A stretch of 64,000 nt of DNA, from contig NZ_JABBNC010000004.1 in assembly GCF_012933445.1 (NCBI RefSeq), forward strand, positions 124,001 through 188,000, written 5' to 3'. Below, in pieces: positions 6,551 to 28,024 of the stretch. The DNA is from Actinoplanes sp. TBRC 11911 (GTDB lineage: Bacteria > Actinomycetota > Actinomycetes > Mycobacteriales > Micromonosporaceae). The notes below the pieces were generated by a model, which had not been told where the DNA came from, did no database searches, and saw nothing but the letters and a program-made list of their open reading frames with translations. The translations under genes were made by a program, and so were the position numbers. Position 1 is the first letter of the stretch. Each line of letters opens with the position of its first letter.

Positions 6551-7021
6551 GTGAGTCAGCATAGGGACTCCGTCCTTTCCAGACAGTCGACCGGAGTCAG
6601 ATTCCTGGTCCACCTGCTGCCTTCCTCGTCGGCGCCGAGCTGGCTGGGGTGGCCGGTCGCGGCCACGGTGCCGGAAACCTCCACGGACTGGTTCGGCTGG
6701 CGGCTGATGACCGGGAACAACCGTGAGCTGGCGCGCAGCGCGTTCCGGTTCCCGGCCGCCGACCTGTGCCGCCAAGCCGTCCGGGACGTGCGCAGCGGCA
6801 GCACCAGGATCGCGACCGACGTGGTCAACGACCGGTTGACCGGGCGGTTCAGCTGGCGCGGGGCGCTGGACGGGGTGGTCGTCGCGGCGGGCCGGCGTTA
6901 CCAGCAGGAGCAGGGCGCCCGGCACGCGGCCAGGAGGTTCGTCGGAGCGGTGGCCGGAGCCGAGGTTGTCGATGCGGTCCGCGGCCTGCCCGACTGGCAC
7001 GTGCCGGTGAGTGCGCGATGA
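6551..7021 (+). CDS. Small conserved protein, upstream member of pst-flanking paralogue pair
   Basis: A 156-residue soluble protein I cannot assign to a named family. The central pattern W-x-L-x3-NNRELARS, a conserved Cys, RFSWRGALDGVVVAAGRRY and AEVVDAVRG recurs in the minus-strand gene at the far end of the pst block (20115-20501), so the two are paralogues. The repeating residue pattern loosely recalls the YegP/DUF1508 fold. The GTG at 6551 is chosen because it follows the PHO-box-like repeats and a TAAGG site, and earlier frame overlaps that control region. Its TGA overlaps the ATG of pstC (ATGA), indicating translational coupling. Confidence 0.6.
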   Translation: MSQHRDSVLSRQSTGVRFLVHLLPSSSAPSWLGWPVAATVPETSTDWFGWRLMTGNNRELARSAFRFPAADLCRQAVRDVRSGSTRIATDVVNDRLTGRFSWRGALDGVVVAAGRRYQQEQGARHAARRFVGAVAGAEVVDAVRGLPDWHVPVSAR

Positions 7022-8034
7022 GCGACGTCTTAGTGGAGGCCCCGGAGCGGCAGGGCCCGCAGCCGCGGGTGCGCCTGAAGGCGAACCTCGAGTGGCCGGA
7101 CCGCGTCTTCCGAGGTGTCGCCCGCGGTGGGGGTCTGCTTGTCCTGCTCATCATGGCGCTGGTCGGTACGTTCCTGACCTATCGTGCGCTGCAAGCGTTG
7201 CGACAGGCCGGCTTCAGCTTCGTCACCACCCAGGACTGGAACCCGGACGGCGGTGGCTTCGGCATCGCGGCGGTCATGGTCGGCACGGTCCTGATCGCGA
7301 TCGTGGCGATCGTGGTGGCCACCGCTTTGGCCGTCGGTGTCGCGCTTTACATCTCGGAGATGGCACCACCCGGCGTACGACGTCTGATGGTTGCCCTGGT
7401 GGACCTGATGGCCGCGGTTCCCAGCGTGGTTTACGGGCTGTGGGGGGCGTATTTCCTGCAGTGGCGGGTGCTCGGCCTCTCCCGGTGGATCTCCGACTGG
7501 TTCGGATGGATTCCGCTTTTCAAGGTGAGCGGAGTCCAACGGCACGACCCGCTGACACCGGAAACCCTTTACACGTCGAGCACGTTCATCGCGGGGCTCG
7601 TCGTGGCGCTCATGGTGGCGCCGATCGCCTGCTCGGTGATGCGCGAGGCCTTCAGCCAGGCGCCGCCCGGCGAGCGCGAGGGCGCCTACGCGCTGGGTGC
7701 GACGCGCTGGGGCATGATCCGGAGTGTCGTGCTGCCGTTCGGCCGCGGCGCGCTCATCGGCGGCATCATGCTCGGCCTGGGCCGGGCGCTGGGCGAGACG
7801 ATCGCGGTCGTCCTGATCATTTCGCCGGTCTTCAAGATCCAGCCGCACATCTTCGAGAACGGGACCTCCAGCGTCTCCAGCCTCATCGCGCTGCACTACG
7901 GCGAGTCGAGCCCGTTCGCGCTCAGTGCGCTGATGGCCGCGGGACTGGCCTTGTTCGCGCTGACGCTGCTGGTGAACTTCGCCGCGGCGTCCATCGTGGC
8001 CAGGTCGCGTTCCGGCGCGGTAAGCGAGGCGTGA
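7018..8034 (+). CDS. pstC: Phosphate ABC transporter permease PstC
   Basis: A 338-residue inner-membrane subunit with about six membrane segments. The coupling-loop EAA motif reads EGAYALGATRWGMIRSVVLP, characteristic of PstC, followed by the GRALGETIAVVLI signature. The family forms the channel with PstA and is driven by PstB. The gene is translationally coupled to the small upstream gene and is followed four bases later by pstA. The extended periplasmic loop between helices 3 and 4 (WRVLGLSRWISDWFGWIP...) matches long actinobacterial PstC proteins. Confidence 0.95.
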   Translation: MSDVLVEAPERQGPQPRVRLKANLEWPDRVFRGVARGGGLLVLLIMALVGTFLTYRALQALRQAGFSFVTTQDWNPDGGGFGIAAVMVGTVLIAIVAIVVATALAVGVALYISEMAPPGVRRLMVALVDLMAAVPSVVYGLWGAYFLQWRVLGLSRWISDWFGWIPLFKVSGVQRHDPLTPETLYTSSTFIAGLVVALMVAPIACSVMREAFSQAPPGEREGAYALGATRWGMIRSVVLPFGRGALIGGIMLGLGRALGETIAVVLIISPVFKIQPHIFENGTSSVSSLIALHYGESSPFALSALMAAGLALFALTLLVNFAAASIVARSRSGAVSEA

Positions 8035-8038
8035 ACCG

Positions 8039-9253
8039 ATGACCGTGCTCGACCAGAAAACTGAACCGCGGACCTCGATTCCCGAGCGGGGTAGATCGAG
8101 CGCCACGCAGACCCGCCGGAAGCTGGGCGGATTTCGCAAGAGCGATGTCTTCGCGCTGGTCGGCGGCCTGGCTGCCGCGTCCGCCACCACCGGTCTGCTC
8201 TGGCTTCAGATAGGTCCGTTCACCGGGGCGCTGGGCTACGTGATAGTGAGCTGGTTCATCTTCGTCGGCACTTATGCGTTGCTGGTGTCCTTCGACGAGA
8301 ACCGGCCGACCATGTGGGACCGGATCGCCACGGTGATTGTGCACTCGCTGGCGCTGGTGCTGTTCGCCGTCCTGGTCTTCGTGATCGTCTACACGTTCGT
8401 CCGAGGTGCGACCGCCCTGCGGCATCTCAACTTTTTCACGCAGGACATGCACGATGCGGGGCCACTCGACCCGCTCACCGTGGGCGGTATCAAACACGCC
8501 ATCATCGGCACGCTGATCGAGCTGGGCATCGCACTGGCCGTGTCGGTGCCGCTGGGCCTGCTCGGCGGGGTGTTCCTGCATGAGATCCCGGGGCGCTTCC
8601 CCCGATTCGTGCGGACCGTGGTGGAGGCGATGACAGCGCTGCCCGACCTGCTGGCCGGCCTGTTCATTTTCGCGACCCTCATCTTGATCTTCGGGATGGA
8701 GAAGTCTGGTCTCGCAGCGGCGCTTGCCCTGTCGGTCACCATCTTGCCGATCATCATCCGCGCGTCGGACGTCGTGCTGAGGCTCGTTCCGGGCAACTTG
8801 ACCGAGGCGTCGTACGCGCTCGGTGCCGGACATTGGCGCACGGTCCGCTATGTGGTGCTGCCGACGGCCCGGTCCGGGCTCGCCACGGCGGTGATCCTCG
8901 GTGCCGCCCGGGCGATCGGCGAGACCAGTCCGGTGCTGATCACCGCTGGAGCGACCGCGCAGGTGAACGCCGATCCGGTGCACGGTCCGATGATGAGCCT
9001 GCCGCTGCTGTCCTACACGCTCGTGCAGAACTCTCAGGACAACATGGTGGCCCGCGGTTTCGGCACCGCCACCACCTTGTTGGTCCTGGTCCTGGTGTTG
9101 TTCGCGATCGCCCGCGTCATCGGTGGGCGCGGGCCGGGCCAGCTCAGCAGACGCCAGCAGCGTCGTCGTGCCGCGGCGTCCCGGCGCGACTTGAACCGGT
9201 TCGCCGGCCAAACGACTGCCCCGACAGGCGAGGCACAGGGAGAATTCTCATGA
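8039..9253 (+). CDS. pstA: Phosphate ABC transporter permease PstA
   Basis: A 404-residue membrane protein. The EAA loop is EASYALGAGHWRTVRYVVLP and is followed by ARAIGETSPVLI, the diagnostic PstA signature. It has about eight hydrophobic segments, with an N-terminal extension of 35 polar residues and a basic, polar C-terminal tail (SRRQQRRRAAASRRDL) that are longer than in E. coli PstA. It pairs with PstC. The stop overlaps the ATG of the pstS-like gene (ATGA), so stoichiometry is probably coordinated. Confidence 0.95.
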   Translation: MTVLDQKTEPRTSIPERGRSSATQTRRKLGGFRKSDVFALVGGLAAASATTGLLWLQIGPFTGALGYVIVSWFIFVGTYALLVSFDENRPTMWDRIATVIVHSLALVLFAVLVFVIVYTFVRGATALRHLNFFTQDMHDAGPLDPLTVGGIKHAIIGTLIELGIALAVSVPLGLLGGVFLHEIPGRFPRFVRTVVEAMTALPDLLAGLFIFATLILIFGMEKSGLAAALALSVTILPIIIRASDVVLRLVPGNLTEASYALGAGHWRTVRYVVLPTARSGLATAVILGAARAIGETSPVLITAGATAQVNADPVHGPMMSLPLLSYTLVQNSQDNMVARGFGTATTLLVLVLVLFAIARVIGGRGPGQLSRRQQRRRAAASRRDLNRFAGQTTAPTGEAQGEFS

Positions 9254-10980
9254 TCAACCCGTCTCGACGTGGCTTGTTGCGTCGCTGGCTCACGATGGCT
9301 TGCGCCGTGCTGCTGGCCGCCGGGGTGGGCCTCGCCATCCGGCCGCCGGGAGCGGCGGCGGCCGGTTACGTGACGATCAACGGCGCCGGGTCGACCTGGT
9401 CGCAGAACGCGATCGACACCTGGCGGCGTAACGTCGCGCAGTTTGGCATGAACGTCAATTACACCGGCCTGGGTTCGTCCGACGGCCGGAACCAGTTCCG
9501 GGTCGGCACGGTCGACTGGGCCGCCTCCGACATCGCGTACGGGGTCAAGGACGGCAACAACGAAGATCCGCCGCCGACCGCCCAGCATCCATTTGTCTAC
9601 GTGCCGGTCACCGCCGGTGGCACGACGTTCATGTACAACCTGAAGATCGGTACCCGGCAGGTGACGAATCTGCGATTGTCGGGTGCCACCATCACGAAGA
9701 TCTTCACCGGTGTGATCAAGATGTGGAACGACCCGGCCATCGCCGCCGACAATCCACAATTGCGTCTCCCCGGGATCAAAATCGTTCCGGTCGTACGGTC
9801 CGACGGCTCCGGCGCCACCGCCCAGTTAACTCAGTGGATGGTCGCTACCCAGGGTTCCCTGTGGAATGACTACTGCGCGGCTGCCCACCGCACGCCGTGC
9901 ACCCAGACCTCGGTGTACCCGATCGTGCCCGGCCGCGGCATGGTGGCCCAGTTGGGCGACGCCAACGTCGCGGGCTACGTGAAGCAGAAGGATGCCGTCG
10001 GCACTATCGGCTATGTCCAGTACTCGTATGCCAAGAACGCCGGGTTCCCGGTCGCGAAGATGCTCAACAAGGCCGGTTACTACACCGAGCCGACCGCGGG
10101 TCACGTCGCCGTGTCGCTGCTCAAGGCGCGGATCAACAACAACGCAAACGATCCGAACGTGTACCTGACGCAGGACCTGTCCCAGGTGTACGTCAACCCG
10201 GACAAGCGTACCTACCCGCTCTCCGGCTACTCGTACATGATCATGCCGACCTCGACCAATGCGCCGATCACCAAGGCCAAGGGGCTGACGCTGGCGGACT
10301 TCGGCAAGTACGCCCTTTGCCAGGGACAGGCGCAGGTCAACTCGCTCGGCTACTCGGCGTTACCCATCAACCTCGTGGAGGCCGGGTTCGCCCAGCTCAA
10401 GAAGATTCCTGGCGCGAACATCGGCAACATCAGCGTCCAGTCCTGTCACAACCCCACGTTCACCACGAACGGCACCAACCTGTTGGTCACCCAGGACCCC
10501 AATCCGCCCGCTTGCGACAAGCAAGGGCCGACCCAGTGCACGACCGGCACCGGGGGGTCAAAAGACCAGGACACCCCCGCCACCAACGGGTCGAACGGGA
10601 CCAAAGCGCCCGGCAACGGGTCCGGCACACCGGGAGGCGGGAAGACGCCCGGTAGCAACGACCCGAACAACCCCGATTCGACGAAAGCCGCTACCCAGGA
10701 CGGTGGCAACGGTGCGACCGGGCAGCAGACCGCATGTGATGCGGATAGCGGCGACTGTGCCGCGGCCGGCAGCGGTGGTGGTGGCGCCGGCCAGTCCGAC
10801 GTGTTCGCCGACCCGGTGTCCGCGGAGGCCGGTCTTGGCGACGGATTCCGCGTCGCTCTCATGGTGCTGGCCGGCGCATTGCTGGTCGCGCTGACGCTAG
10901 GGCCGCCCTTGATCGCGCTGGGCGGCATGCGACGCCGGCGGCGGTCGGATCGATTCACGAACCCCGGAGGGCACGCATGA
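9250..10980 (+). CDS. pstS: PstS-like phosphate-binding protein with C-terminal membrane anchor
   Basis: A 576-residue exported protein. A twin-arginine-containing signal segment (about 1-37, LLRRWLTMACAVLLAAG) precedes a periplasmic-binding domain with the PstS signatures INGAGSTWSQNAIDTWR, DWAASDI and VVRSDGSGATAQLT. The usual GSGTS phosphate loop here reads GSGAT. A Gly/Asn/Thr-rich linker (about residues 430-520) leads to one membrane helix (VALMVLAGALLVALTLGPPLIAL) and an MRRRRRSDR tail. There is no lipobox Cys, so it is held in the membrane by its C-terminus rather than a lipid. Substrate identity (phosphate) is from family and context. Confidence 0.9.
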   Translation: MINPSRRGLLRRWLTMACAVLLAAGVGLAIRPPGAAAAGYVTINGAGSTWSQNAIDTWRRNVAQFGMNVNYTGLGSSDGRNQFRVGTVDWAASDIAYGVKDGNNEDPPPTAQHPFVYVPVTAGGTTFMYNLKIGTRQVTNLRLSGATITKIFTGVIKMWNDPAIAADNPQLRLPGIKIVPVVRSDGSGATAQLTQWMVATQGSLWNDYCAAAHRTPCTQTSVYPIVPGRGMVAQLGDANVAGYVKQKDAVGTIGYVQYSYAKNAGFPVAKMLNKAGYYTEPTAGHVAVSLLKARINNNANDPNVYLTQDLSQVYVNPDKRTYPLSGYSYMIMPTSTNAPITKAKGLTLADFGKYALCQGQAQVNSLGYSALPINLVEAGFAQLKKIPGANIGNISVQSCHNPTFTTNGTNLLVTQDPNPPACDKQGPTQCTTGTGGSKDQDTPATNGSNGTKAPGNGSGTPGGGKTPGSNDPNNPDSTKAATQDGGNGATGQQTACDADSGDCAAAGSGGGGAGQSDVFADPVSAEAGLGDGFRVALMVLAGALLVALTLGPPLIALGGMRRRRRSDRFTNPGGHA

Positions 10981-13622
10981 CCCCGTTGCGACGGGCCGTC
11001 GCGGCCGTTGCCGCGCTCGTGGTCGCGGGCACGCTGACGGTGGTGGACCCGTTCGCCGCGACCCGGCCCGCAAGCGCCGCGATCGACCCGATCAGCGGGT
11101 TCGGAACCACCGACTCCGCGGTGACCGTTCACTGGGCGGACGGCCTCACCGGCACCGACAACAAGACGATTGTGACTCCGCGCCAGCCGAAGGGCTCGTC
11201 CGGGGCTTTCCTCGACGACTTGTGGGACGGCTTCGGGAATCTGAGCCTGACCGTCGGTCAGACCTCCGGCCTGACTCACCAATCTGTGCAGGTCAGCTGG
11301 TCCGGCGCGACGCCGACACCACCGGGCAACATCAGTGGTGACTACCTGCAGATGATGCAGTGTTACGGAGACTCGGAGAAGGGACCCGACCCAGAGAACT
11401 GTCAATGGGGCAGCTTCAACGCGGTGAGTCTTCCCGATGCAGCCAGTAGCGGTGTCAAGGTTGACGACAGTCGTACCGGAGTGCTCTGTGGTGACAACCC
11501 GGCATCGCCCAGCGGCTGCGACCCGGCTGAAAAAGATCACCCGGAACATGTGCCGCCGGCGGTGCTGAACCAGAGCGGCATCTATTCGGTGCCTTTCATC
11601 CCGGTCGATACGACGGATAAGATCTACCTTCGCGACGCCGACTCTCTGCACCCTGACCTTCCGTCGCTGAGTGAATATTTCAACGCCCAATCCACCAACG
11701 AGATCCCGGCCGGGATCACCTCCGCGGACGGTACCGGAGAAGAACATTTCGAGGTTCAGACGAATCGCGAAGCCGGCGGATTGGGCTGTGGCGCTCCCAA
11801 CGCCGCGGCCGGCAATTCCCCGCGAAGCTGCTGGCTGGTGGTCGTCCCGCGCGGCAACGTGCACCCGAACAACCAACCGCAGCGTCTGGGTAACCAATCG
11901 GCCCTCGGCTCCACCGCTTGGGCGCAGCGTCTGCAGGTCCGACTGAACTTCGTGCCCACCAACGACACCTGCTCGCAGGAAAGTGCCGTGCGGCCCATGG
12001 TCGGGACCGAGTTGGTCGCCGGTCTGATCCAGTCGTGGCAACCAGCGCTCTGCCAGAACGGAGGCTCGGTCTACAGCTTCGCCGCCACCGCGGACGACAC
12101 GAATGCGACGGAGCTCGGCAGCGATGCTGCGGGCGCGGCCGGGATGGCGTTCACCACCGGCGCCATCACGTTTCCCGATGGGGGGCCGGCGGTGTTGTAC
12201 ACGCCGGTAGCGATAACGGGATTGACGTTCGCCTTCCGTATCGACACCCAATCCGAGAACGCCGTTCAGCAGATACGGCAGGTCAAAGTCAATCCAGAGT
12301 TGGTAGCGAAGTCGTTGACGCAATCCTACAAGGGCGATCTTCCCGGCGGCGCGATTTCGGCGAACTCGACGTATTTCGAACAGCCGGACTGGATGAAGAC
12401 GGTGTATGTCAACATCACCGCGGACCCGAAATGGCACGACCTCAACCCCGACATCGCGCGCCCCGGCCTCAGCTACACGACGGCTCCGATGACCACGGCG
12501 GACGAGTCGGCAGTCAACCAATCGGTATGGGCCTGGGTGCAGTCCGACCAGGGCACGCGGGACTGGCTCGGCGGTAAACCCGACGCGACCGGAATGGTGG
12601 TCAACTCGGATCTGCAGGACCTCGACCTGGATCAGCCCCCACCGGCCACCGGTTACCCGCGCGACAGCAAGATCTGCACGCGCAGCAAAGACCCCTCGGC
12701 GCCGCACAGCGAAAATCCTGCGGCCGACCCGTGCATCAACTCGGTCGACTACATTCCGTTTGCGAGCAACCTCGATGACGTTGGGCTTCACATCCAGCGC
12801 GCCCTCACCGCCGGCACGCCCGGTACCTGGGATCCGGCGGCTCTGTCGCCGAGCGGCGACGCCGGTTATTGGGCGAAGGCACAGGCGGCCCCGGTCGGCC
12901 AGCGCTTCGCCTGGGGGATCACCGACGCAGCGGTGAGCGCCAAGTACGGCTTGCCGACCGCGGATCTGTGCACTGCGGACGGCAACTGCGTGGCCCCTTC
13001 GGCGGCCAGCCTCGGAGCAGCCGTGGCGCAGGCGCGGCCCGACAGTCACAAGCTCATGCAGGTCGATCCCGCCAACCTCGGGCCAGACGCGTACCCGCTC
13101 ACCCGGGTCGTCTACGCCGCGGTTCGTCTCAATCAGGATCCGGCCGCTCTGCGTGACTCCGCCGCGCTGTTGGACTACGCGGCGGACAAAGGGCAGGTTT
13201 CGGGCGTCGAGGTAGGCCAGCTTCCGCCCGGTTATCTACCCTTGCCGGCCGGACTTCGCGCCGCGACGAAGGCCGGGGCAACCGTCTTGCGCATGCTTGC
13301 CGACGGCAAGCCCGTCCCGTCCGAGCCGGGCGTGATTCAGCCGTCGACGCCGTCGCACCCGTCTTCCACCGTGACGTCGCCGAGTCACGCTGCCACCGGC
13401 GTTCCTGATCCGGGGAAACCGCCGACTACCGGCCCGGTCCCGACGGGGGCCACGATCAGCCAGCCACCGGCCGGGCTCGCCGCCTCCACCGGCTCCACCG
13501 CGAACGACACCCTCGGCCTCATCCGCTGGGTCCTGGTCGGAGCGTTGATCGCCAGCGGGGCCGGCAGTCTCGGCGGCCTTTTGCTGCGATTCATGCGCCG
13601 ACGACGGACAGTCGACGGGTAA
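10977..13622 (+). CDS. Large membrane-anchored PstS-like surface protein
   Basis: An 881-residue exported protein, coupled to pstS by an ATGA overlap. A signal peptide (about 1-36) is followed by a novel N-terminal region containing several Cys pairs. From about residue 370 the sequence becomes periplasmic-binding-protein-like (AGAAGMAFTTGAITFPDGG...VAITGLTFAF; NPELVAKSLTQSYKGDLP), and near residue 700 it shows the PstS C-terminal pattern (YPLTRVVYAAV...LLDYAADKGQ...LPPGYLPLPAGL). A Pro/Thr-rich linker leads to one helix (WVLVGALIASGAGSLGGLLL) and an RRRR tail. It is far larger than normal PstS. The ligand is unknown. Confidence 0.75.
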   Translation: MTPLRRAVAAVAALVVAGTLTVVDPFAATRPASAAIDPISGFGTTDSAVTVHWADGLTGTDNKTIVTPRQPKGSSGAFLDDLWDGFGNLSLTVGQTSGLTHQSVQVSWSGATPTPPGNISGDYLQMMQCYGDSEKGPDPENCQWGSFNAVSLPDAASSGVKVDDSRTGVLCGDNPASPSGCDPAEKDHPEHVPPAVLNQSGIYSVPFIPVDTTDKIYLRDADSLHPDLPSLSEYFNAQSTNEIPAGITSADGTGEEHFEVQTNREAGGLGCGAPNAAAGNSPRSCWLVVVPRGNVHPNNQPQRLGNQSALGSTAWAQRLQVRLNFVPTNDTCSQESAVRPMVGTELVAGLIQSWQPALCQNGGSVYSFAATADDTNATELGSDAAGAAGMAFTTGAITFPDGGPAVLYTPVAITGLTFAFRIDTQSENAVQQIRQVKVNPELVAKSLTQSYKGDLPGGAISANSTYFEQPDWMKTVYVNITADPKWHDLNPDIARPGLSYTTAPMTTADESAVNQSVWAWVQSDQGTRDWLGGKPDATGMVVNSDLQDLDLDQPPPATGYPRDSKICTRSKDPSAPHSENPAADPCINSVDYIPFASNLDDVGLHIQRALTAGTPGTWDPAALSPSGDAGYWAKAQAAPVGQRFAWGITDAAVSAKYGLPTADLCTADGNCVAPSAASLGAAVAQARPDSHKLMQVDPANLGPDAYPLTRVVYAAVRLNQDPAALRDSAALLDYAADKGQVSGVEVGQLPPGYLPLPAGLRAATKAGATVLRMLADGKPVPSEPGVIQPSTPSHPSSTVTSPSHAATGVPDPGKPPTTGPVPTGATISQPPAGLAASTGSTANDTLGLIRWVLVGALIASGAGSLGGLLLRFMRRRRTVDG

Positions 13623-13808: not shown

Positions 13809-15008
13809 ATGAAGCTGAAAGGCTTCCTTGTCGCTGCGGCCGGCAGCGCCGTGATCGCGAGCGCCGTCCTCGGCGCCACCGGTCCCGCGTTCGCCGACCC
13901 GGCGGCTCCCACGACGATCGCCGGCGCCGGTTCGGACACCACTCAGGACGTGATGGACGCGATGGCGAAGGCCCTCGCGCCGGCGACGATCGGATCGTGG
14001 AACGCGATCACGGGCGGCACCACGGTCCATGACCCGATCACCCCGAAGAGCACGACCGCTTGTACGGGCGTGTCCCGGCCGAACGGCTCGGGCGAGGGCG
14101 TGACCGCGCTGCGCCGGTCGCTGAGCAACACCGCGGGCTACCCGGCCAGCACCACCGCCACCTACGCGGCCGGCGCCGGGGCCACGGTTCCCGCGCTGGG
14201 CTCGCTGTGCTTCGACTTCGCGCGTTCGTCCAGCGGCCCGGGCGCCAACGCCAGCTCGTCCGGTCTGCTGCAGTACGTGCCGTTCGGTCTGGACGGCGTT
14301 ACCACGGCGACGGGCCCGGCCACGGGCAGCAACGCCACCCTGATCAAGGGCGCTTTCACCCTGGCCCAGCTCAAGGGGATGTACGCCAACGGCACGGCTG
14401 CCAAGGCGACCGACGGCGTCACGTACGACCCGAACCCGGCCGACGGCAACCAGGGCACCACGATCCACCTGCTGATCCCGCAGGCCGGCTCGGGTACCCG
14501 TAGCTTCTTCTCGACCGCCCTGGGCTTCAACGGCACCACCCCGCCGGCGTGGGTGTCCGACACCTACACGCCGACCGCCGGTGGCGCCACGGCGTCCGTG
14601 CAGGAGCACGACGGCACCGCCGTCAGCCTGGACCACAGCGCGATCATGCCGTTCTCGACCGCGCAGTGGATTGCTCAGGCGACCGGCCACGGCGACCGTC
14701 GCCACGGCGCGATCCTGCAGAAGATCGACGGCGTGGCGCCGACCGCCGCGGGTGTGCTCAACCAGAGCTTCCCGAGCGACCTGCTCCGCGAGGTCTACAA
14801 CGTGATCCCGTTCTCGGCCACCACGGCGACGGGCACGCCGCTCTACAACACCTTCGTCAACCAGACGCCCTCGAACCCGCTGCGTATGTGCGCCCGCACG
14901 GCCGTCATCCAGACGTACGGGTTCGGCCTGCTGAACAACGCGCCGAAGGGCCACACCTGCGGCCAGATCGCCCCTGAGCTGCGCGCCTTCAGCTCGGCTC
15001 AGTGGTAA
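13809..15008 (+). CDS. PstS-like periplasmic substrate-binding protein
   Basis: A 399-residue secreted protein with a clear signal peptide (about 1-29, cleavage near PAFADPA). It carries the PstS-superfamily signatures TIAGAGSDTTQDVMDAM, FDFARSSSGPG and IPQAGSGTRSFF (ligand loop GSGTR). Unlike the two upstream binding proteins it has neither a membrane anchor nor a lipobox, so it may be freely secreted or held by partners. A strong ribosome-binding site (GAAAGGGG) precedes the ATG. It is the third binding-protein homologue in the cluster. Confidence 0.85.
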   Translation: MKLKGFLVAAAGSAVIASAVLGATGPAFADPAAPTTIAGAGSDTTQDVMDAMAKALAPATIGSWNAITGGTTVHDPITPKSTTACTGVSRPNGSGEGVTALRRSLSNTAGYPASTTATYAAGAGATVPALGSLCFDFARSSSGPGANASSSGLLQYVPFGLDGVTTATGPATGSNATLIKGAFTLAQLKGMYANGTAAKATDGVTYDPNPADGNQGTTIHLLIPQAGSGTRSFFSTALGFNGTTPPAWVSDTYTPTAGGATASVQEHDGTAVSLDHSAIMPFSTAQWIAQATGHGDRRHGAILQKIDGVAPTAAGVLNQSFPSDLLREVYNVIPFSATTATGTPLYNTFVNQTPSNPLRMCARTAVIQTYGFGLLNNAPKGHTCGQIAPELRAFSSAQW

Positions 15009-15115: not shown

Positions 15116-16387
15116 ATGAACGCACATGACACTGTCCGTCGGGCCGCAATGCTGGCCGTGGGGGTGCTGGCCGGGACGACCTTGTTCGCCACGGCAGCGC
15201 AGGCCGCGCCAGTCAGTGGCCCCGGCGGGCTGACCATCACCCCGGCCGCCGGATCGACGACCGCCAACCCGATCGGCAGCAGCTTCGCGAGCGCGAACGC
15301 ATGCCCGGAGGACTTCCGCGCGTTGGCTCAGGTCTCGCTCCTCAGCGACAGCGGGGCGTTCGTCCCGCTGACCAACAGCGTCTTCGACGTGGCCGACACC
15401 AAGCTGAGCGGTCCGCTCGGCGTGGGGGACAGCCTCGCCACTGCCATGGCGAACTACGTTGACGGCGCGCTGCCGTCCGGCGACTACGAGTTCGCGCTGC
15501 TGTGCTACAACGGCGACTTCGACTTCCGCGTCGGCGCCAGTGCCCCCGTGCACGTCAACCTCGAGGACAAGACCTGGAACGTCGTCGAGGGTGGCGGTGA
15601 GACCGGAGCGGTCGCCACCACCACGACGCTGACCGCCGACCCGACCAACGCCAAGGCCGGCGACGACGTGACGCTGACCGCGACGGTGGGCGGCGAGGGC
15701 GCCGCCGGTTCGGTCGAGTACTTCGACGGCGGCAACTCGCTGGGCACCGTGGCCGTGTCCGGCGGGACCGCCACCAAGACGGTGGACACGCTGTCGGCGG
15801 GCGACCACTCGCTGACCGCGAAGTTCGAGCCGACCGACCCCGACGCGTTCAAGGAGTCCACCTCGGACGCCGTGACCGTCAAGGTCACCGCCGAGGACGG
15901 CAGCTCGACCGGTGGTCAGCAGATCAACGTGACGGTTCCGAGTATCGGCGGCGGCAACGGATCCCTCACCATGGAGGTCGGCAGCGACCCGGTGACGCTG
16001 GACCAGGTGGCCGAGGGTCAGCTGTCCTTCAAGGGCGACCTGAGCGAGATCACGGTGACCGACGAGCGCGACCAGCTCGCCGGCTGGCACGTGGACGGCA
16101 CGACGAGCGACTTCACCGGCGACAACGGCACCATCGCGGCCAAGCAGCTGGGCTGGGCGCCGAAGGTGGTCGAGCAGAACGAGAAGGCGGACGTGGTCAA
16201 GGGCGCCGACGTGACGCCCGCCGCTCCGGGCCTGGCGAATGCCGCCACGCTGGCCTCGGCGGCCGCCGGAAAGGGTGCCGGATCGGCCACCCTGGGCGGA
16301 ACGCTGGACCTGGAGGTTCCCGCGGAAGCGGCGGCGGGTTCCTACTCCGCCGACCTGACCGTGACCCTCATGGGTAGCCCCAGCTAG
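15116..16387 (+). CDS. Secreted WxL-like protein with Ig-like domain
   Basis: A 423-residue exported protein with a signal peptide to about residue 31. A roughly 110-residue N-terminal domain with two Cys follows, then a Big_3-like Ig repeat (about 165-260: TTTLTADPTNAKAGDDVTLTATV...GDHSLTAKFEP). The C-terminal domain of about 150 residues resembles the Firmicutes WxL surface domain: a proximal GWHVDGTTSDFTG segment and a final GSYSADLTVTL. In Firmicutes this domain binds peptidoglycan non-covalently and pairs with DUF916 proteins; the next gene here is DUF916-like. The functional analogy is inferred. Confidence 0.75.
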   Translation: MNAHDTVRRAAMLAVGVLAGTTLFATAAQAAPVSGPGGLTITPAAGSTTANPIGSSFASANACPEDFRALAQVSLLSDSGAFVPLTNSVFDVADTKLSGPLGVGDSLATAMANYVDGALPSGDYEFALLCYNGDFDFRVGASAPVHVNLEDKTWNVVEGGGETGAVATTTTLTADPTNAKAGDDVTLTATVGGEGAAGSVEYFDGGNSLGTVAVSGGTATKTVDTLSAGDHSLTAKFEPTDPDAFKESTSDAVTVKVTAEDGSSTGGQQINVTVPSIGGGNGSLTMEVGSDPVTLDQVAEGQLSFKGDLSEITVTDERDQLAGWHVDGTTSDFTGDNGTIAAKQLGWAPKVVEQNEKADVVKGADVTPAAPGLANAATLASAAAGKGAGSATLGGTLDLEVPAEAAAGSYSADLTVTLMGSPS

Positions 16388-16389
16388 TA

Positions 16390-16438
16390 GCCGAAGGCGG
16401 GGCAGGTGCGTCTCGCGCCTGCCCCGCCTCGGCCGTTT
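16390..16438 (+). terminator. GC-rich hairpin inside the pst/surface operon
   Basis: Arms at 16390-16409 and 16415-16433 form a stem of about 19 pairs with one bulged A and a G-T pair, with a loop of about five bases, followed by CGTTT. It begins right after the stop of the WxL-like gene. It could terminate partially, or protect the 3' end of the upstream mRNA so that the surface protein is made in excess over downstream genes. Confidence 0.65.
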
Positions 16439-16476
16439 CATGAGACCCGATCCGGTATGAGGGGAAAGAACCTTCG

Positions 16477-17688
16477 ATGACCAGTCGTGCGCGGGCCCAC
16501 CGTGTCTGGCACCTGATGGCGGCCGTCGCCGTCGTCGTGACCAGCGCGGCTGCCGCCACACCCGCGATCGGGGCGCCCTCCGTGGCTCCGACCCCGACGC
16601 CATCCCCGTCGGCCGGTAAGAGCCCGGCTTCGAAATCCTCGCCGGTGCGATGGTCGGTGGCGCCGGCAAATGCCACCACAGTGGACGGCCGCAACCAATA
16701 CTCGTACGAGAACGTGCGTCCCGGCGCGACGGTGCACGACTATGTCAGCATCACCAACCTCGGCGCCGCGCCGGTCACCTTCCGGGTGTACGCCGCGGAC
16801 GGGGTCACCACGGCGGACGGCAAGATTTCCGTGGCCACCGCTGCCGTCAAACCGACCGACCTCGGCGTCTGGACCAAGCTCGCGCACGGCAGTGTGAAGG
16901 TGCCGGCCCGGAGCCAGGTGATCGAGCCCTTCACCATCAACGTGCCGGCTAATGCCACGCCCGGGGACCACGCCGGCGGGCTGATCGCCTCGGTCACCGA
17001 AAAGGCCGCCGAAGGCCAGGTCAGCCGAGAAAGCCGGTTCGCGGTCGCCGCCTACGTCCGCATCGTCGGCGCGCTGACCCCGGCGCTCGGCATCGAGTCG
17101 GTCTCGGCCAGCTATAAGGGGACCGCCAATCCGTTCGGTGCCGGCGGTGCCACCGTCGCCTACACGGTGCATAACACCGGCAACGTGCGACTGTCGGCCG
17201 CCCAGGCCGTGTCCGTCACCGGTCCGTTCGGCACCGAGGAAACGGTCCGGCCGGACGCGCTGGCGGTGGTGCTGCCCGGCGACTCGGTGCGCGTCACCGC
17301 TCACCTGTCCGGGATCCAGCCCGTCGGCCCGCTGAAGGCACACGTGACGGTCACTCCGGGACCCGCGTCGCACGCGCCCAAGATGTCCGCGGCGCTCACC
17401 CCGGTCGCGCAGACCGTCGGCCTGTGGGCGACACCGTGGCCGCAGATCGTGCTGTTGCTGATCCTCATCGTGATCGCGCTCGGCGTGTGGTGGTGGATTC
17501 GGATCAGCCGTCGTCGCATGCGCGCCAAGCTGGCCGCCGCCGAGGACCGCGGGCGCCAGGCGGGTGCCCTAGCGGAACTCCTCGAGCCGGCACCGGTCCG
17601 CGACGGCGATCCCTCGGACGGCCCCGAACTCGTCGACTCCCACCATGCCGGCGATGCGACGTCGCTCGCCGCACCCGACCCCGATTGA
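16477..17688 (+). CDS. DUF916 (WxL-interacting) membrane protein
   Basis: A 403-residue protein with an N-terminal signal, a Pro/Ser/Thr spacer and two beta-sandwich domains. The first matches DUF916 (about 55-190: RWSVAPAN...YENVRPGATVHDYVSITNLG...VPANATPGDHAGGLIASV). The second (about 200-320) is DUF3324-like. A single helix near 335-355 (QIVLLLILIVIALGVWWWI) is followed by RISRRRMRAKL and an acidic cytoplasmic tail. In Firmicutes such proteins bridge WxL proteins and the wall. The DUF916-after-WxL gene order is retained here. Confidence 0.82.
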   Translation: MTSRARAHRVWHLMAAVAVVVTSAAAATPAIGAPSVAPTPTPSPSAGKSPASKSSPVRWSVAPANATTVDGRNQYSYENVRPGATVHDYVSITNLGAAPVTFRVYAADGVTTADGKISVATAAVKPTDLGVWTKLAHGSVKVPARSQVIEPFTINVPANATPGDHAGGLIASVTEKAAEGQVSRESRFAVAAYVRIVGALTPALGIESVSASYKGTANPFGAGGATVAYTVHNTGNVRLSAAQAVSVTGPFGTEETVRPDALAVVLPGDSVRVTAHLSGIQPVGPLKAHVTVTPGPASHAPKMSAALTPVAQTVGLWATPWPQIVLLLILIVIALGVWWWIRISRRRMRAKLAAAEDRGRQAGALAELLEPAPVRDGDPSDGPELVDSHHAGDATSLAAPDPD

Positions 17689-17694
17689 GGAGCC

Positions 17695-18336
17695 ATGCCC
17701 TACCGACGTATGACCAGTGCCGGCGCGTGGCTGGCCCTCACCGTCGCCGGCTTGTTCGGCCCGGCGTCGAGCGCATGGGCGGACGACGGCCCATCGGTCT
17801 CGGTCACGGTGCCGGAGCACACCACGCCGCCGGCTCAGCCGGTCACCCTCACGTGCGCCGGCGCCGACGGCAAGGCCCTGGGTGCCAACCCCACCCTGCA
17901 CCCGCGTGACCAGCTTTCGTGTACGGGTACCGGGTTCGCCGCCGGTGAACCGGTGAACGCCACTCTCGCTCCCGCGCGCTCGTTGGGTACGGTCACCGCC
18001 GGCCAGGACGGCGAGTCGCAACTGGACGTCTCGCTGCCGGCCGATCTCGGAGCGGGCAGCCAGACTCTGCGGTTCACCGGTAACACGTCGCGGCGTACGG
18101 CGAGCTTCGCGTTCACCGTCACCATCGTCGTCTCGGTGCCGGTGGGCGGTGGCACCGCGGCGCCCGGCGACGGCTCGGACAATTCCGGTGGTCACGGGCT
18201 CGGCTCGCTCCCGCGTACCGGTCTGAACATCATGGGGATCGGCCTGGCCGGGGCGGTCCTGATCGGGGGCGGTGTGGTGCTGCGCCGGCTGGGCCGCCGG
18301 CGAAAGATCGCCGGACCCGGCGGTGATCGCGGATGA
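17695..18336 (+). CDS. LPXTG-type (LPRTG) cell-wall-anchored protein
   Basis: A 213-residue secreted protein with a signal peptide (about 1-27, ending SAWADDG), a single beta-rich domain with a Cys pair (TLTCAGAD...QLSCTGTG), and a classical cell-wall sorting signal: LPRTG, then a hydrophobic helix, then RRLGRRRK. It begins six bases after the DUF916 gene with a GAGGAG site, and its TGA overlaps the next ATG. The adjacent sortase-like protein lacks a catalytic Cys, so wall attachment would need a sortase encoded elsewhere. Confidence 0.8.
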   Translation: MPYRRMTSAGAWLALTVAGLFGPASSAWADDGPSVSVTVPEHTTPPAQPVTLTCAGADGKALGANPTLHPRDQLSCTGTGFAAGEPVNATLAPARSLGTVTAGQDGESQLDVSLPADLGAGSQTLRFTGNTSRRTASFAFTVTIVVSVPVGGGTAAPGDGSDNSGGHGLGSLPRTGLNIMGIGLAGAVLIGGGVVLRRLGRRRKIAGPGGDRG

Positions 18337-19292
18337 CCGCCGTCGTCGAAGGCCGCCGTCCGGCGGCGCCCCCGCCCGTGCGCCCGACGGCGCCCGCGCC
18401 GCCGTCCGGCCGTCCCAGCGGCGGCTCCCGGCAATCGTTGCCGTCACCGTGGCAGGTGGCGTCGACCGCCATGCTTCTGTTGTCGGCGACGTTTTTCGTG
18501 TTCGTCGCGTACACCGGAGCCATCTCCTCGCTGCACCATTCGCGGGCTCAGCTGACCGCGTACGCCAACTTCCGCAAGACCCTGGCGGAGGCCACCGCGC
18601 CGGTCGCGGCCACCCGCCCGGACGACCCGAAGCGGCTGCTCGACCCCGGGACCGCGGTGACGTTGTTGTCCATCCCGCGGATCGGACTCCGCGAGGTCGT
18701 CTTCGAGGGCACCACCGGGTCGATCCTGCGGGACGGACCGGGCCACCTCCGCACGACGCCGCTACCGGGCCAGTCCGGCACCTCGGTGGTGATGGGCCGG
18801 GCCAGCACGTACGGTGGGCCGTTCGGCAAACTCTCCAGGCTGAACCCGGGTGACACGGTCACGGTCACCACCGGCCAGGGCGTCTCGACGTACCGGGTGC
18901 GAGGCGTGCGGCGCGGCGGCGATCCGCTCCCGCCGCCGCTCGCCGCGGGCGGCGGACGGTTGACCCTGACCACCGCCGACGGCTCGCCCTTCCTGCCCGC
19001 CGGCGTGCTTCGCGTCGACGCGGACCTGGTCTCCGCGGCGATGCCGACGCCGGCGAACCCCCTTACCCGGCACGACCTGTCGTCGGCCGAGCTGGCGATG
19101 GGCACCGACCAGTTCGCGTGGATGCAGCTCGTCCTGTGGGGCCAGGCGCTGGTGCTCGCCGCCGTCCTGATCGCCTGGACCCGGCTGCACTGGGGCCGCT
19201 GGCAGGTGTGGACGGTGTCGGTTCCGGTGCTGAGTTTCCTCAGCGTGGCGACTGCCGACCAGATCGCCCGCCTGTTGCCGAACCTGATGTGA
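18333..19292 (+). CDS. Sortase-fold protein lacking catalytic Cys and His (pseudo-sortase)
   Basis: A 319-residue membrane protein. A Pro-rich cytoplasmic N-terminus leads to a helix (about 46-68), then a sortase beta-barrel (LLSIPRIGLREVVFEGT; LPGQSGTSVVMGRASTYGGPFGKLSRLNPGD; RLTLTTADGSPF). Two C-terminal helices follow (about 255-275 and 285-310). In active sortases the two core motifs carry a His (GHR) and a Cys (TLxTC). Here they read MGRA (Arg at 156) and TLTTA (Ala at 215), and the whole protein contains no cysteine. It probably acts as a scaffold or chaperone for the surface proteins rather than a transpeptidase. Confidence 0.8.
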   Translation: MTAVVEGRRPAAPPPVRPTAPAPPSGRPSGGSRQSLPSPWQVASTAMLLLSATFFVFVAYTGAISSLHHSRAQLTAYANFRKTLAEATAPVAATRPDDPKRLLDPGTAVTLLSIPRIGLREVVFEGTTGSILRDGPGHLRTTPLPGQSGTSVVMGRASTYGGPFGKLSRLNPGDTVTVTTGQGVSTYRVRGVRRGGDPLPPPLAAGGGRLTLTTADGSPFLPAGVLRVDADLVSAAMPTPANPLTRHDLSSAELAMGTDQFAWMQLVLWGQALVLAAVLIAWTRLHWGRWQVWTVSVPVLSFLSVATADQIARLLPNLM

Positions 19293-19303
19293 GGAATGTC
19301 GAA

Positions 19304-20134
19304 GTGAACGATTACAAGGACACGCTCGAGTGGGCTCCGGCCGTCGACCCCTCCGGGCATCTGGCCGGGCTGGACGCGCGCGAGATCAGCGCCTGGTTCG
19401 GTGACCACCAGGTGCTCGACCGTGTGTCATTGCACATGCGTGCCGGTCAGGTCACCGCGCTCATCGGGCCTTCCGGCTGCGGGAAGTCCACCTTCCTGCG
19501 GATCCTGAACCGGATGCACGAGCTCGTCCCGGGGGCCAGCCTGGCTGGGGAAGTCCTGCTGGACGCCGAGGACATCTACGATTCCTCGCGGCGGCTCACC
19601 GAGGCACGCAGGCAGATCGGCATGGTTTTCCAGAAGCCGAACCCGTTCCCCGCCATGTCGATCTACGACAACGTCGTCGCGGGCCTCAAGCTCACCGGCC
19701 TCAAGGTGCGCCGTGGCGCCAAGGACATGCTGGTGGAGGAGTGCCTGACCAAGGCCGGGTTGTGGCGTGAGGTCCGCGACCGGCTTCGCCAACCGGGCGG
19801 CGCCCTCTCCGGCGGCCAGCAGCAGCGGCTCTGCATCGCCCGTTCGCTCGCCATTCGCCCGCGAGTGCTGCTCATGGACGAGCCGTGCTCGGCACTCGAC
19901 CCGACATCGACCCGTGTCATCGAGGAGACCATCGCCGAGCTCGTCTCGGAGGTGACGATCGTCATCGTCACACACAACATGCAGCAGGCGGCGCGAGTCT
20001 CGAACGAGTGTGCTTTCTTTCTGGCCGAGCGCGGTCAGCCCGGTTCCATCGTGGAGCACGGCCCGACCGATGCCATGTTCGACGACCCGCAGGATCCACG
20101 CACCGCCGATTACGTCAACGGTCGCTTCGGCTGA
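19304..20134 (+). CDS. pstB: Phosphate ABC transporter ATP-binding protein PstB
   Basis: A 276-residue ATPase with Walker A GPSGCGKST, the PstB-specific VFQKPNPFPAMSIYDNV, signature ALSGGQQQRLCIARSLAI, Walker B VLLMDEPCSALDPTST and H-loop VTHNMQQA. It ends with the typical PstB pattern GPTDAMFDDPQDPRTADYVNGRFG. The GTG at 19304 is favoured by a GAGGA site eight bases upstream. It is separated from pstC-pstA by the whole surface module, about 10 kb away, instead of following pstA directly. No phoU gene follows. Confidence 0.95.
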   Translation: MNDYKDTLEWAPAVDPSGHLAGLDAREISAWFGDHQVLDRVSLHMRAGQVTALIGPSGCGKSTFLRILNRMHELVPGASLAGEVLLDAEDIYDSSRRLTEARRQIGMVFQKPNPFPAMSIYDNVVAGLKLTGLKVRRGAKDMLVEECLTKAGLWREVRDRLRQPGGALSGGQQQRLCIARSLAIRPRVLLMDEPCSALDPTSTRVIEETIAELVSEVTIVIVTHNMQQAARVSNECAFFLAERGQPGSIVEHGPTDAMFDDPQDPRTADYVNGRFG

Positions 20135-21708: not shown

Positions 21709-21876
21709 GACGGGATGTCGTGAGTTTTGATGTTCCGGTTGTTGAATGCGGCCGGACGGACACGGCCGGTGGATAACCACGAGAAGTTGTCGTACCCGGA
21801 TGCTTAACTCGACCCCACCCAGTGACACGGGTGGGCGCCGGCGGCGGACCTGCCATACGTGGAGGTGCGGCGCCGC

Positions 21877-21990
21877 GCGCAGACGTTCGGCGGCACGCGT
21901 ACACCTTGGCGGCACGCGCAGACGTTCGGCGGCACGCGTACACCTTGGCGGCACGCGTAGACCTTTGGCGCCACGCGTAGACCTTTGGCC
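21877..21990. repeat. 39-bp tandem repeat
   Basis: Two near-perfect 39-base units (21877-21915 and 21916-21954) are followed by two truncated variant units ending near 21990. Each unit is itself built from two related halves of about 19-20 bases ending in GGCGGCACGC. The array ends 38 bases before the metallophosphoesterase start and contains no gene. Confidence 0.75.
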
Positions 21991-24873: not shown

Positions 24874-24901
24874 CCTGGCTCGCCACGGCGGCTACGCGGC
24901 G

Positions 24902-24990
24902 TTCCTGCCCAACCGGTGCGGTGTTCCCCGCCCAACCGGTGCGTTGTTCCCGCCGAACCCGTGCGGTGTTCCCGCCTAACCTGCGCGGCG
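24902..24990. repeat. 22-24 bp tandem repeat after the sensor kinase
   Basis: Four degenerate copies of a unit containing CCCAACCGGTGCGGTGTTCC lie 30 bases after the kinase stop. They diverge by single substitutions (CGTTG, CGAACCCG, CTAACCTG). No coding meaning is apparent. Confidence 0.7.
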
Positions 24991-25760: not shown

Positions 25761-25939
25761 GTGCCGGGGTGCCGGGGTGCCGGGGTGCCGGGGTGCCGGG
25801 GTGCCGGGTGCCGGGGTGCCGGGTGCCGGGTGCCGGGTGCCGGGTGCCGGGTGCCGGGTGCCGGGTGCCGGGTGCCGGGTGCCGGGTGCCGGGTGCCGGG
25901 TGCCGCGTGCCGCGTGCCGCGTGCCGCGTGCCGCGTGCT
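25761..25939. repeat. Heptanucleotide/octanucleotide microsatellite
   Basis: About 180 bases consist of five 8-base units (GTGCCGGG), then a long run of 7-base units (GTGCCGG) with an occasional 8-base unit, then about five GTGCCGC units. The ordered change of unit from one end to the other is typical of replication slippage with local spread of variants. It encodes nothing credible. Confidence 0.9.
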
Positions 25940-26083: not shown

Positions 26084-28024
26084 GTGACTCAGGATCGCAC
26101 GAGGGATCGTTCGAGCAGCGGAGCACGCGCCGAGTCGCACGGAGCACGCGACGGCGCAGGCGCCGAGTCGCACAGAGCGGGCGCCGAGTCGCACGGAGCA
26201 GGCACCAAGTCGCACGGGGCGCACTCCGAGCCGCGCGGGGCGCACTCCGAGCCGCGCGGGGCGCACTCCGAGGCGTACGGGGCGCACTCCGGGTCGCACG
26301 CGGCGCACTCCGAGTCGCACGCGGCGCACTCCGGGTCGCACGGCGCGTCGACCATGGACCTGAGCGGGCGCTGCGTCGGCAACTCCTACATTCTCGTGCA
26401 ACCCATCGGACAAGGCGCCACCGGGACCGTATGGCGCGGCGTGGACCGCTCCAGCGGTGACCCGGTCGCCGTGAAGCTGCTGCACGAGAGCCTGCTGCGC
26501 CAGCCCCGCCTGGTCACCCGCTTCGTGCAGGAACGAACCATCCTGCTGATGCTCCGCCACCGCAACGTCGTCCGGGTGCGCGACCTGTTCAGCGTCGGCG
26601 AAACGCTCGGCCTCGTCATGGACCTGGTGTCCGGCGGCAGCCTGCGCGATCACCTGCGCGAGCACCACACGGTCGCGGCCGGCGAGGCGGCCCGGCTGGC
26701 CGCGCAGGTCGCCGCCGCGCTCGCCGAGGCGCACGAGCTCGGCATCGTGCACCGCGACCTCAAGCCGGACAACATCCTGCTCAAGACCGACAAGCAGGGC
26801 CGCCTGGACACCCGGCTCACCGACTTCGGCATCGCCCGCATCCTCAACACGCCGAGCATGACCACGCCCAACGCGGTCGTCGGCACCCCGCACTACATGG
26901 CCCCGGAGGCGTTCCACGGGGTCACCGCCAGCCCGGCCACCGACGTGTACGCGCTCGGCGTCCTGCTTTACGAACTCGTGTGCGGCCACCCGCCGTACCG
27001 CAGCGACTCGATCCCCGACCTGATGCGCCAGCACATGGACGGCGGCCCGGAACGGCGAGCAGGCATTCCCGACGGCCTCTGGGACGTGATCATGTCGTGC
27101 ATGGCGCAGAAGCCGCGCCTGCGTCCGACCGCCGCCGAGCTGGTAGCCGATCTCTCCGACCTGTCGCGCCGCTTCGAGCGGGTGGTGGCGCTGCCCAGGC
27201 CAGAGGCGCCGGCGTCCGCGGAGCCGGCCGACGACGCCGTCGACAAACCGCCGATGTCCGTCATCCCCGCCCCGCGCCGCCCAGGAAAGCGCAACCAGGC
27301 ACCGAGCTGGCGCTGGGCTCGTCCGGGTGCGAGCGTCGCCTTGATCGCCGGCGCCATGGTCGCCTCCGCCGTAGCCACGATCGCCTGGAACTTCGGCCGC
27401 GCGAACGGCGAGCCGCCCGCCGAACCGCATGTGCTCGCCGCCCCGACGGCCAAGCAGCCGCACCCGGCAAGCGGCGTCTCGCAAGCCGCTGCACAGGCCG
27501 CGCGGCGCGACAAGAATCAACCCCAGGCAACCCGGCCGTCCCAGCAGCAACTGCCGCCTCGTCCGGCCGTTGTGGTCACGGTTCCTGCTCCCCCCGTACG
27601 CGGGAACGCCGCACCCGGCAAACAAAGCGCGACCAGATCGCCGCAGCCGGAGGCGAAGCCGTACGGCCCGTGGCAATGCCAGCAGCGATACGCGTTCGAT
27701 TTCGCCAGCAAGACGCCGTTCGCGGTGTCGCCGTGCTCGATGGTCGGCCGCGACATCCAGTACAAGGGCTCGCTCGCCGGACCGGGCGGCGGCACCGGCT
27801 CGATCACGATGAGCCTCCAGGACGCCGGCAGCGGACGCACCGTAGCCGGCCCGAGAACGTGCGGTGGCCTGACCTTCGGCGGCGACGTCGCCACCCGCAC
27901 CTGCGGCTCCTTCGCGGCCACGCCGGCCCACGGCCACGACTACCTCGTCGTGCTTTCGTACCGGTATGAGCGCAACGGGCGTACGGTCGCCAGCACCGCG
28001 AAGGGATCGACGTTCCGCTGGTGA
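26084..28024 (+). CDS. Transmembrane Ser/Thr protein kinase (Hanks type)
   Basis: A 646-residue kinase. The GTG is supported by GGAGGG seven bases upstream. Residues 1-90 are a His/Ser/Gly-rich repeat tail, followed by the kinase domain (about 95-365) with GQGATGTVW, VAVK (Lys131), HRDLKPDN (catalytic Asp225), DFG (Asp247) and MAPEAF. A Pro/Ala juxtamembrane stretch leads to one helix (about 416-438) and an extracytoplasmic region ending in a small domain with four Cys (WQCQQRY...PCSM...RTCGG...RTCGS). All catalytic residues are present. The external Cys domain may sense a wall signal, which is inferred. Confidence 0.92.
   Translation: MTQDRTRDRSSSGARAESHGARDGAGAESHRAGAESHGAGTKSHGAHSEPRGAHSEPRGAHSEAYGAHSGSHAAHSESHAAHSGSHGASTMDLSGRCVGNSYILVQPIGQGATGTVWRGVDRSSGDPVAVKLLHESLLRQPRLVTRFVQERTILLMLRHRNVVRVRDLFSVGETLGLVMDLVSGGSLRDHLREHHTVAAGEAARLAAQVAAALAEAHELGIVHRDLKPDNILLKTDKQGRLDTRLTDFGIARILNTPSMTTPNAVVGTPHYMAPEAFHGVTASPATDVYALGVLLYELVCGHPPYRSDSIPDLMRQHMDGGPERRAGIPDGLWDVIMSCMAQKPRLRPTAAELVADLSDLSRRFERVVALPRPEAPASAEPADDAVDKPPMSVIPAPRRPGKRNQAPSWRWARPGASVALIAGAMVASAVATIAWNFGRANGEPPAEPHVLAAPTAKQPHPASGVSQAAAQAARRDKNQPQATRPSQQQLPPRPAVVVTVPAPPVRGNAAPGKQSATRSPQPEAKPYGPWQCQQRYAFDFASKTPFAVSPCSMVGRDIQYKGSLAGPGGGTGSITMSLQDAGSGRTVAGPRTCGGLTFGGDVATRTCGSFAATPAHGHDYLVVLSYRYERNGRTVASTAKGSTFRW
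26216..26341 (+). repeat. 21-bp coding repeat in kinase N-terminus
   Basis: Six consecutive 21-base units encode GAHSEPR/GAHSGSH-type heptapeptides (His and Ser at fixed positions). Looser versions extend upstream. It expands the N-terminal tail of the kinase in frame, so length polymorphism among strains would leave the kinase intact. Confidence 0.85.

Follow-up and report, generated by a model that had tools for sequence, protein, structure and literature searches.

The protein treated here is related to the class E sortases. For SrtE1 of Streptomyces, the available part of the structural description assigns contacts with the sorting signal to the β6/β7 loop and Tyr229 (PMC5148588). Clusters of the csc/WxL type are described in Firmicutes in the accessible portions of the reports on them (PMC1534035, PMC10599100). 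In the literature searched, as far as the text portions available extend, neither a pseudosortase nor a sortase-like gene within a pst locus was found to be described. In Actinomycetota, members of a catalytically dead, class E-related sortase family are regularly encoded in a Pst-like ABC importer locus. Both the pseudoenzyme assignment and the tie to this locus are strongly supported.

The window, i.e., the whole stretch of DNA analyzed, comprises 64,000 nucleotides from Actinoplanes sp. TBRC 11911 and contains the following genes and codons of interest (the codons are placed from the start of the open reading frame):

7018..8034, + strand: pstC permease (TIGR02138, 243.3 bits; cut-off, 196.45)
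8039..9253, + strand: pstA permease (TIGR00974, 206.9 bits; cut-off, 193.45)
9250..10980, + strand: PstS-like binding protein, pstS1 (best match TIGR00975, 186.5 bits; cut-off, 205)
10977..13622, + strand: big881, an 881-aa PstS-fold protein and the constant partner
13809..15008, + strand: SBP2, a PBP_like_2 protein (PF12849, 4.6e-11)
15116..16387, + strand: WxL-like protein with a Big_3_5 Ig domain (WxL, 21.3 bits; cut-off, 25)
16477..17688, + strand: WxLIP/DUF916 protein with a hydrophobic C-terminal stretch (33.6 bits; cut-off, 27.3)
17695..18336, + strand: LPRTG sorting-signal protein, 213 aa (LPXTG model, 14.7 bits; cut-off, 15.9)
18333..19292, + strand: pseudosortase, 319 aa, open reading frame with an ATG start
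18798..18800, + strand: Arg156 codon, catalytic His position
18975..18977, + strand: Ala215 codon, catalytic Cys position
19005..19007, + strand: Val225 codon, catalytic Arg position
19304..20134, + strand: pstB-like ATPase with a GTG start (TIGR00972, 335.5 bits; cut-off, 343.2)

The start of the PstS-like gene overlaps the pstA stop (ATGA), and its product ends in a hydrophobic stretch. The pseudosortase ATG and the LPRTG stop codon overlap in ATGA (18333-18336), and the pstB GTG at 19304 lies 11 bases past the pseudosortase stop. The LPRTG protein carries its motif followed by a hydrophobic stretch and a basic tail; together with the WxL-like and DUF916/WxLIP proteins it makes up a csc-like trio at 15116-18336 within the actinobacterial Pst-like operon. 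Another PstB, encoded elsewhere in the genome, scores above its cut-off (373.7 bits), so the Pst-like locus is probably an additional system. The window also holds tandem arrays at 25761-25938, 26151-26347, 21868-21989, and 24896-24988, with units of 7 bp (∼25 copies), 21 bp, 20/39 bp, and 22 bp.

An initial annotation had assigned the product of the gene at 18333-19292 to the sortase fold, and profile and structure comparisons bear this out. The Pfam Sortase model PF04203 matches with an E value of 9.7e-16 and 58.1 bits (cut-off, 26.6), covering only the first two-thirds of the profile (positions 1-83 of 125). The AlphaFold2 model, built with a 47-row ortholog alignment, has a mean pLDDT of 86 and superimposes on Streptomyces sortase E1 (5cuw) with a Z score of 18.1 and an rmsd of 2.0 Å over 129 residues. 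Sortases head the PDB fold listing (Foldseek, VIA-align), e.g., 3re9 at a Z score of 18.8, but sortases of several classes fall within ∼1 Z unit, so the fold search does not fix the class. The best NCBIfam match is the class E sortase model, which matches all 47 members of the ortholog alignment, with the window protein at 77.8 bits staying below the cut-off of 160. As Pfam Sortase likewise matches 47/47 members, automatic annotation is likely to call these pseudosortases sortases. The modeled protein is divided as follows:

residues 39-85: N-terminal helix, with the membrane part at ∼42-64 judged by eye
residues 105-235: dead sortase barrel, with strands from 108 to 232 in the model
residues 262-287 and 289-313: C-terminal helices of the AlphaFold2 model
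C-terminal tail: LLPNLM

A sortase β-barrel is confidently present in the predicted structure. Model and sequence together predict three membrane helices for the family, one N-terminal and two C-terminal. The N terminus is basic, as is the loop connecting the last two helices, which suggests that barrel and tail lie on the outside.

The catalytic residues are missing from this barrel. As proposed initially, the Cys and His sites are occupied by Ala215 and Arg156; in addition, the catalytic Arg is replaced by Val225. A first alignment, like a gapless count from SrtE1 numbering, pointed to Asp216 as the Cys position, an assignment dropped once intact sortases with short loops had been added. The alignment with 34 intact sortases reveals one extra family residue (column 218), which makes Ala215 the better assignment; neither residue is a cysteine. 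In the model, the turn past the former Cys is tight, between strands 208-218 and 221-232, compared with a strand ending at 321 and the next beginning at 328 in the accessible description of SrtE1 (PMC5148588). The window protein contains zero Cys in its 319 residues, as had been stated, which rules out a catalytic Cys/His pair relocated to another part of the chain. Total absence of Cys is no family trait, since 62/102 homologues are Cys-free throughout. Among the 42 family cysteines listed by position, the membrane helices account for 36 and insert columns for 5; a single one, at column 151, belongs to the barrel.

Across 102 distinct homologues, the His column after β4 contains Arg in 99 and Lys in 3, and the Cys column at the end of β7 contains Ala in 76, Ser in 19, Gly in 3, Thr in 3, and Val in 1. 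None of these family rows has a Cys at columns 213-217. His is thus lost in 102/102, and the initial question of whether homologues also lack the catalytic Cys is answered for 102/102 as well. The Arg of β8 is lost in 101/102 and kept only in L140, which has Ser at the Cys site. The 19 serines and the combination of Ser and Arg in L140 are what would be expected of a sortase with an unusual nucleophile, but with Ala in 76 of the 102 proteins, His lost from all, and Arg lost from 101, such an activity is scarcely conceivable.

The LPN tail motif served to pick 107 family rows, and seven more were added by eye (L101-L104, L134, L139, and L140); 106 Cys-less rows were used, 102 once identical ends were removed. 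Omitted were L006 (the window itself), L008-L011 (already represented by other records), L012, which shows the same residues, and three fragments (L133, L135, and L136). The 34 intact rows were drawn from the intact matches, with L170 added, and were taken as having Cys by regular expression or by eye; the presence of Cys in 34/34 is therefore by construction, and these rows also show His and Arg at the corresponding columns. L022, L025, L028, L031, L032, L034, L036, L146, and L153 are among the intact rows omitted, as are L150 and L161 (wrong frame). A tree of 78 of the 140 rows, chosen by the authors (44 Cys-less and 34 intact) and spanning 137 columns with the root not inferred, places a single branch with a support of 100/97 between the Cys-less and the intact sequences. 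The catalytic state needs one change on this tree, and L140 is the Cys-less row attaching nearest to the intact rows. By itself, the 137-column tree cannot separate gain from loss. The barrel evolves with dN/dS values of 0.05 to 0.43 in 14/14 pairs (Nei-Gojobori), which indicates purifying selection. Random or recent loss of the catalytic residues is ruled out by the loss in 102/102, the single-branch grouping, and this selection. The non-enzymatic role put forward initially is thus well supported.

Orthologues from named genomes cover 46 loci in Phytohabitans (70 to 77% identity), Actinoplanes, Dactylosporangium, Plantactinospora, Jiangella, Streptomyces, Kineosporia, Nocardioides, Galbitalea, and others. 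Matches at 1e-20 occur in 27/200 genomes of the order; at 1e-15, 51/197 genomes of the class and 47/198 of the phylum have matches, both counts including true sortases, and many true-sortase matches in the class and phylum searches end near residue 190. In two records of Actinoplanes liguriensis, L010 and L054, VYKRQ takes the place of the pseudosortase N terminus close to masked or gapped sequence, probably an assembly artifact. The match L113 (G329:C10:108-1034) is interrupted by one internal TGA, possibly through decay or sequencing error.

While fold residues are retained, the Cys-less family has typical residues of its own. These are Arg156 (99 of 102), Arg209 (95), Arg193 (93), Pro222 (92), Asp229 (91), Arg140 (88), and Gly217 (87); Pro316 of the C-terminal LLPN tail is present in 102/102. 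The segment from β6 to just past the Cys site spans 24 to 32 residues in the family, with 30 as the usual length, and is rich in Pro and Gly, compared with 31 to 82 residues in the intact rows. A rough, author-written pattern for the intact-type loop is found in 2/102 family members versus 22/34 intact sortases. Column 139, the site of the β3/β4 loop Tyr, is Leu139 in the window protein, Arg in 67 and Leu in 16 of the 102 family members, and Tyr in 22/34 intact rows. The loop that touches the sorting signal in sortase E1 has been swapped for another conserved loop in the pseudosortases. Given that the His site is occupied by Arg or Lys in 102/102, and given the further conserved arginines and the Pst-like setting, the barrel could be thought to bind a putative small anion (phosphate, polyphosphate, or wall or lipid phosphate) through the Arg cluster and to pass it, or a signal, to the importer. 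Position 227, however, is not constant (Arg in 58 and Tyr in 24 of 102), and Arg209 may pair with Asp229, so that the conservation of these two residues may in part be structural only; the anion-binding role is judged quite improbable.

The surroundings of the gene were compared in 33 well-flanked loci from named genomes, for which upstream and downstream sequence of ≥8.5 kb and ≥4 kb, respectively, was available. The genes for big881 and pstB are present in all 33, SBP2 in 32, pstS1 in 29, WxL in 23, pstA in 21, DUF916 in 20, pstC in 12, and a homologue of the LPRTG protein in 3. The profiles were built from these same loci, so the counts are not independent; pstC and pstA are frequently located outside the sequence covered. 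In L080, big881 is encoded on the opposite strand. The divergent members L169, L171, L172, and L173 are likewise found in Pst-like loci, and in L171 the upstream gene scores about equally as pstS1 and big881. The suggestion that the gene always sits beside pstB is confirmed for the well-flanked loci (33/33) but not beyond them: pstB is further off in L174, L176, L178, and L181 and belongs to a divergent unit in L169, L172, and L173. An intact homologue at a Pst-like locus, which would have made the window copy simply a mutated one, does not occur among the homologues examined.

The constant partner, which the initial annotation did not name, is big881. None of the 28 members scanned (28/28) has a Pfam match, while a big881 profile finds solved PstS proteins with an E value of 1.9e-9. 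In a model with a pLDDT of 78, residues 334-775 align with PstS-1 of M. tuberculosis with a Z score of 29.1 and an rmsd of 3.2 over 316 residues; beyond the PstS fold, the model shows an N-terminal β region of ∼290 residues, a linker of low confidence, and a helix at the C terminus. big881 is accordingly predicted to be a large, membrane-tethered PstS-fold protein. Among 60 relatives, it occurs in exactly the 10 genomes with a full-length pseudosortase, defined there as a best match of 8e-36 or better. Among 197 genomes of the class, with the definition of 1e-20 or better and a match reaching past residue 215, 23 have both genes, 7 the pseudosortase only, 2 big881 only, and 165 neither; owing to the relatedness of these genomes, the Fisher value of 9e-22 cannot be read as a clean probability. 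Pseudosortase genomes were picked by E value because weaker matches are mostly true sortases; G281, G291, and G364 have partial matches. On closer inspection, big881 adjoins the pseudosortase in G326, G333, G259, and G362, the contigs of G297 and G299 end inside the locus, and that of G248 is 3.5 kb long. Co-conservation with secreted and tethered proteins would also suit a chaperone that helps the binding proteins of the operon fold or mature rather than being a stable subunit, a role regarded as very unlikely.

A closer link to the sorting-signal protein had been proposed as well, with the gene described as fixed directly after an LPRTG substrate gene. The order holds in the window, including the ATGA overlap, but "fixed" is too strong. 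By script, an upstream same-strand sorting-signal gene is found within 8.5 kb in 15/33 loci, and in 16/33 with L037, which the script missed because the frame is cut at the edge and which was added from a looser pattern scan (hits in 20/46 loci, some false). In 10 of the 15 loci, the motif lies ≤320 bases from the start of the match. The corresponding counts are 2/33 downstream and 1/33 and 0/33 antisense, and L041 has two sorting-signal genes downstream. Under the strict rule, 17/33 loci have no upstream sorting-signal gene, of which L047 has one by the looser scan. Matches to the LPRTG protein, nearly all weak, occur in 17/60 relatives, among them only 3 of the 10 that carry the pseudosortase, the genome of the window included; with homologues in 3/33 loci and no co-distribution, the LPRTG protein is ruled out as the constant partner. 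The start/stop overlap and the excess upstream (15/33, or 16 with L037, versus 2/33 downstream) speak for a pseudosortase that holds or presents the LPxTG/LAxTG signal of its neighbor before the true class E sortase of the genome cuts. The genome has one such enzyme (169.5 bits for the domain alone; cut-off, 160), along with four class F sortases, of which three domains score above the cut-off of 166 and one at 144.9. Since sorting-signal genes, where present, are mostly directly upstream, the signal-holding role gains in those loci. Against it stand the 17/33 loci without such a gene, the uneven distribution of the LPRTG protein, and the loss of the loop and Tyr to which the available text on sortase E1 ascribes signal contacts (PMC5148588). 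Since these contact elements are replaced, holding LPXTG proteins, as first suggested, is unlikely to be the core job of the family.

The reading preferred here is that of a noncatalytic, membrane-anchored docking subunit of the predicted importer, which co-conservation and topology place at about even chances. It is favored because the catalytic columns are replaced, the split falls on one branch, selection is purifying, and the rebuilt pocket is conserved, as well as by the presence of big881 and pstB in 33/33 loci, the co-occurrence of big881, its match to PstS-1, and the PstC and PstA scores. The neighborhood fits an assembly or wall-anchoring role for the binding proteins equally well. 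As a docking subunit, the protein would have lost its catalytic residues once, and its outward-facing barrel would hold the extracytoplasmic binding proteins of the importer, above all big881, near the PstCA permease. The rebuilt, Arg-rich pocket and the Pro/Gly-rich β6/β7 loop would form the binding face. About half of the loci additionally encode an LPxTG-type protein, in many cases along with WxL/WxLIP proteins, perhaps tying the system to the wall. The fuller scenario, in which the disarming of a sortase happened once, early in the history of Actinomycetota, and gave rise to a dedicated structural subunit of a multireceptor ABC importer, a subunit whose sortase fold binds a PstS-type receptor instead of a sorting signal, with an optional wall link, is put at somewhat below even. 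If dead sortases are conserved as partners of an importer, the sortase barrel would prove capable of serving as a binding module, and attention would turn to a Pst-like uptake system whose very large, tethered receptor has no Pfam family. The conserved, disarmed form in Pst-type gene clusters suggests the reuse of an old enzyme as a structural part.

Compared with class E sortases (Streptomyces SrtE1 and Actinoplanes SrtE), the pseudosortase shares the fold and the N-terminal helix but lacks the catalytic Cys, His, and Arg, has the sorting-signal loop and Tyr replaced, and features a C-terminal membrane hairpin with the LLPN tail and a Pst-like locus. The intact class E-type sortases L143, L147, L156, L159, and L170 have a hairpin and an LLP- or ALP-type tail like the pseudosortase; unlike it, they keep the catalytic residues and, over the 20 kb inspected, have ccm-like neighbors and no match to big881, PstC, PstA, or PstS. 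No big881, PstC, PstA, or PstS match was found within 20 kb of the hairpin-bearing intact sortases L165-L168 and L170, where only a weak pstB match, to the neighboring ATPase, is seen. In L165 and L166, this ATPase scores above cut-off as CcmA; the four genes that follow it in L166 best match CcmB, CcmC, CcmE, and CcmF, all under their cut-offs, and the ccm-like neighborhood of L167, L168, and L170 was read by eye. These sortases (∼7000-16000 in L165-L168 and L170) are divergent to cytochrome c maturation genes. For the remaining intact sortases, the neighborhood covers ∼1.5 kb on each side.

SipA, a pseudo-signal peptidase of some pilus loci, may offer an analogy to the pseudosortase. With the Pst phosphate importer, the window locus shares PstC and PstA above cut-off and PstB and a PstS-like protein just under it, and it adds the tethered 881-aa PstS-fold protein, SBP2, and the pseudosortase. 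As in the csc/WxL clusters of Firmicutes, so far as the available parts of their descriptions show, a DUF916 protein with a C-terminal helix, a WxL-type protein, and an LPxTG-type protein adjoin one another. The csc LPxTG proteins measure 90 to 140 aa in those parts, compared with 213 aa for the LPRTG protein of the window. Unlike the csc clusters, the trio of the window is embedded in an actinobacterial Pst-like operon, and its WxL match lies below the cut-off.
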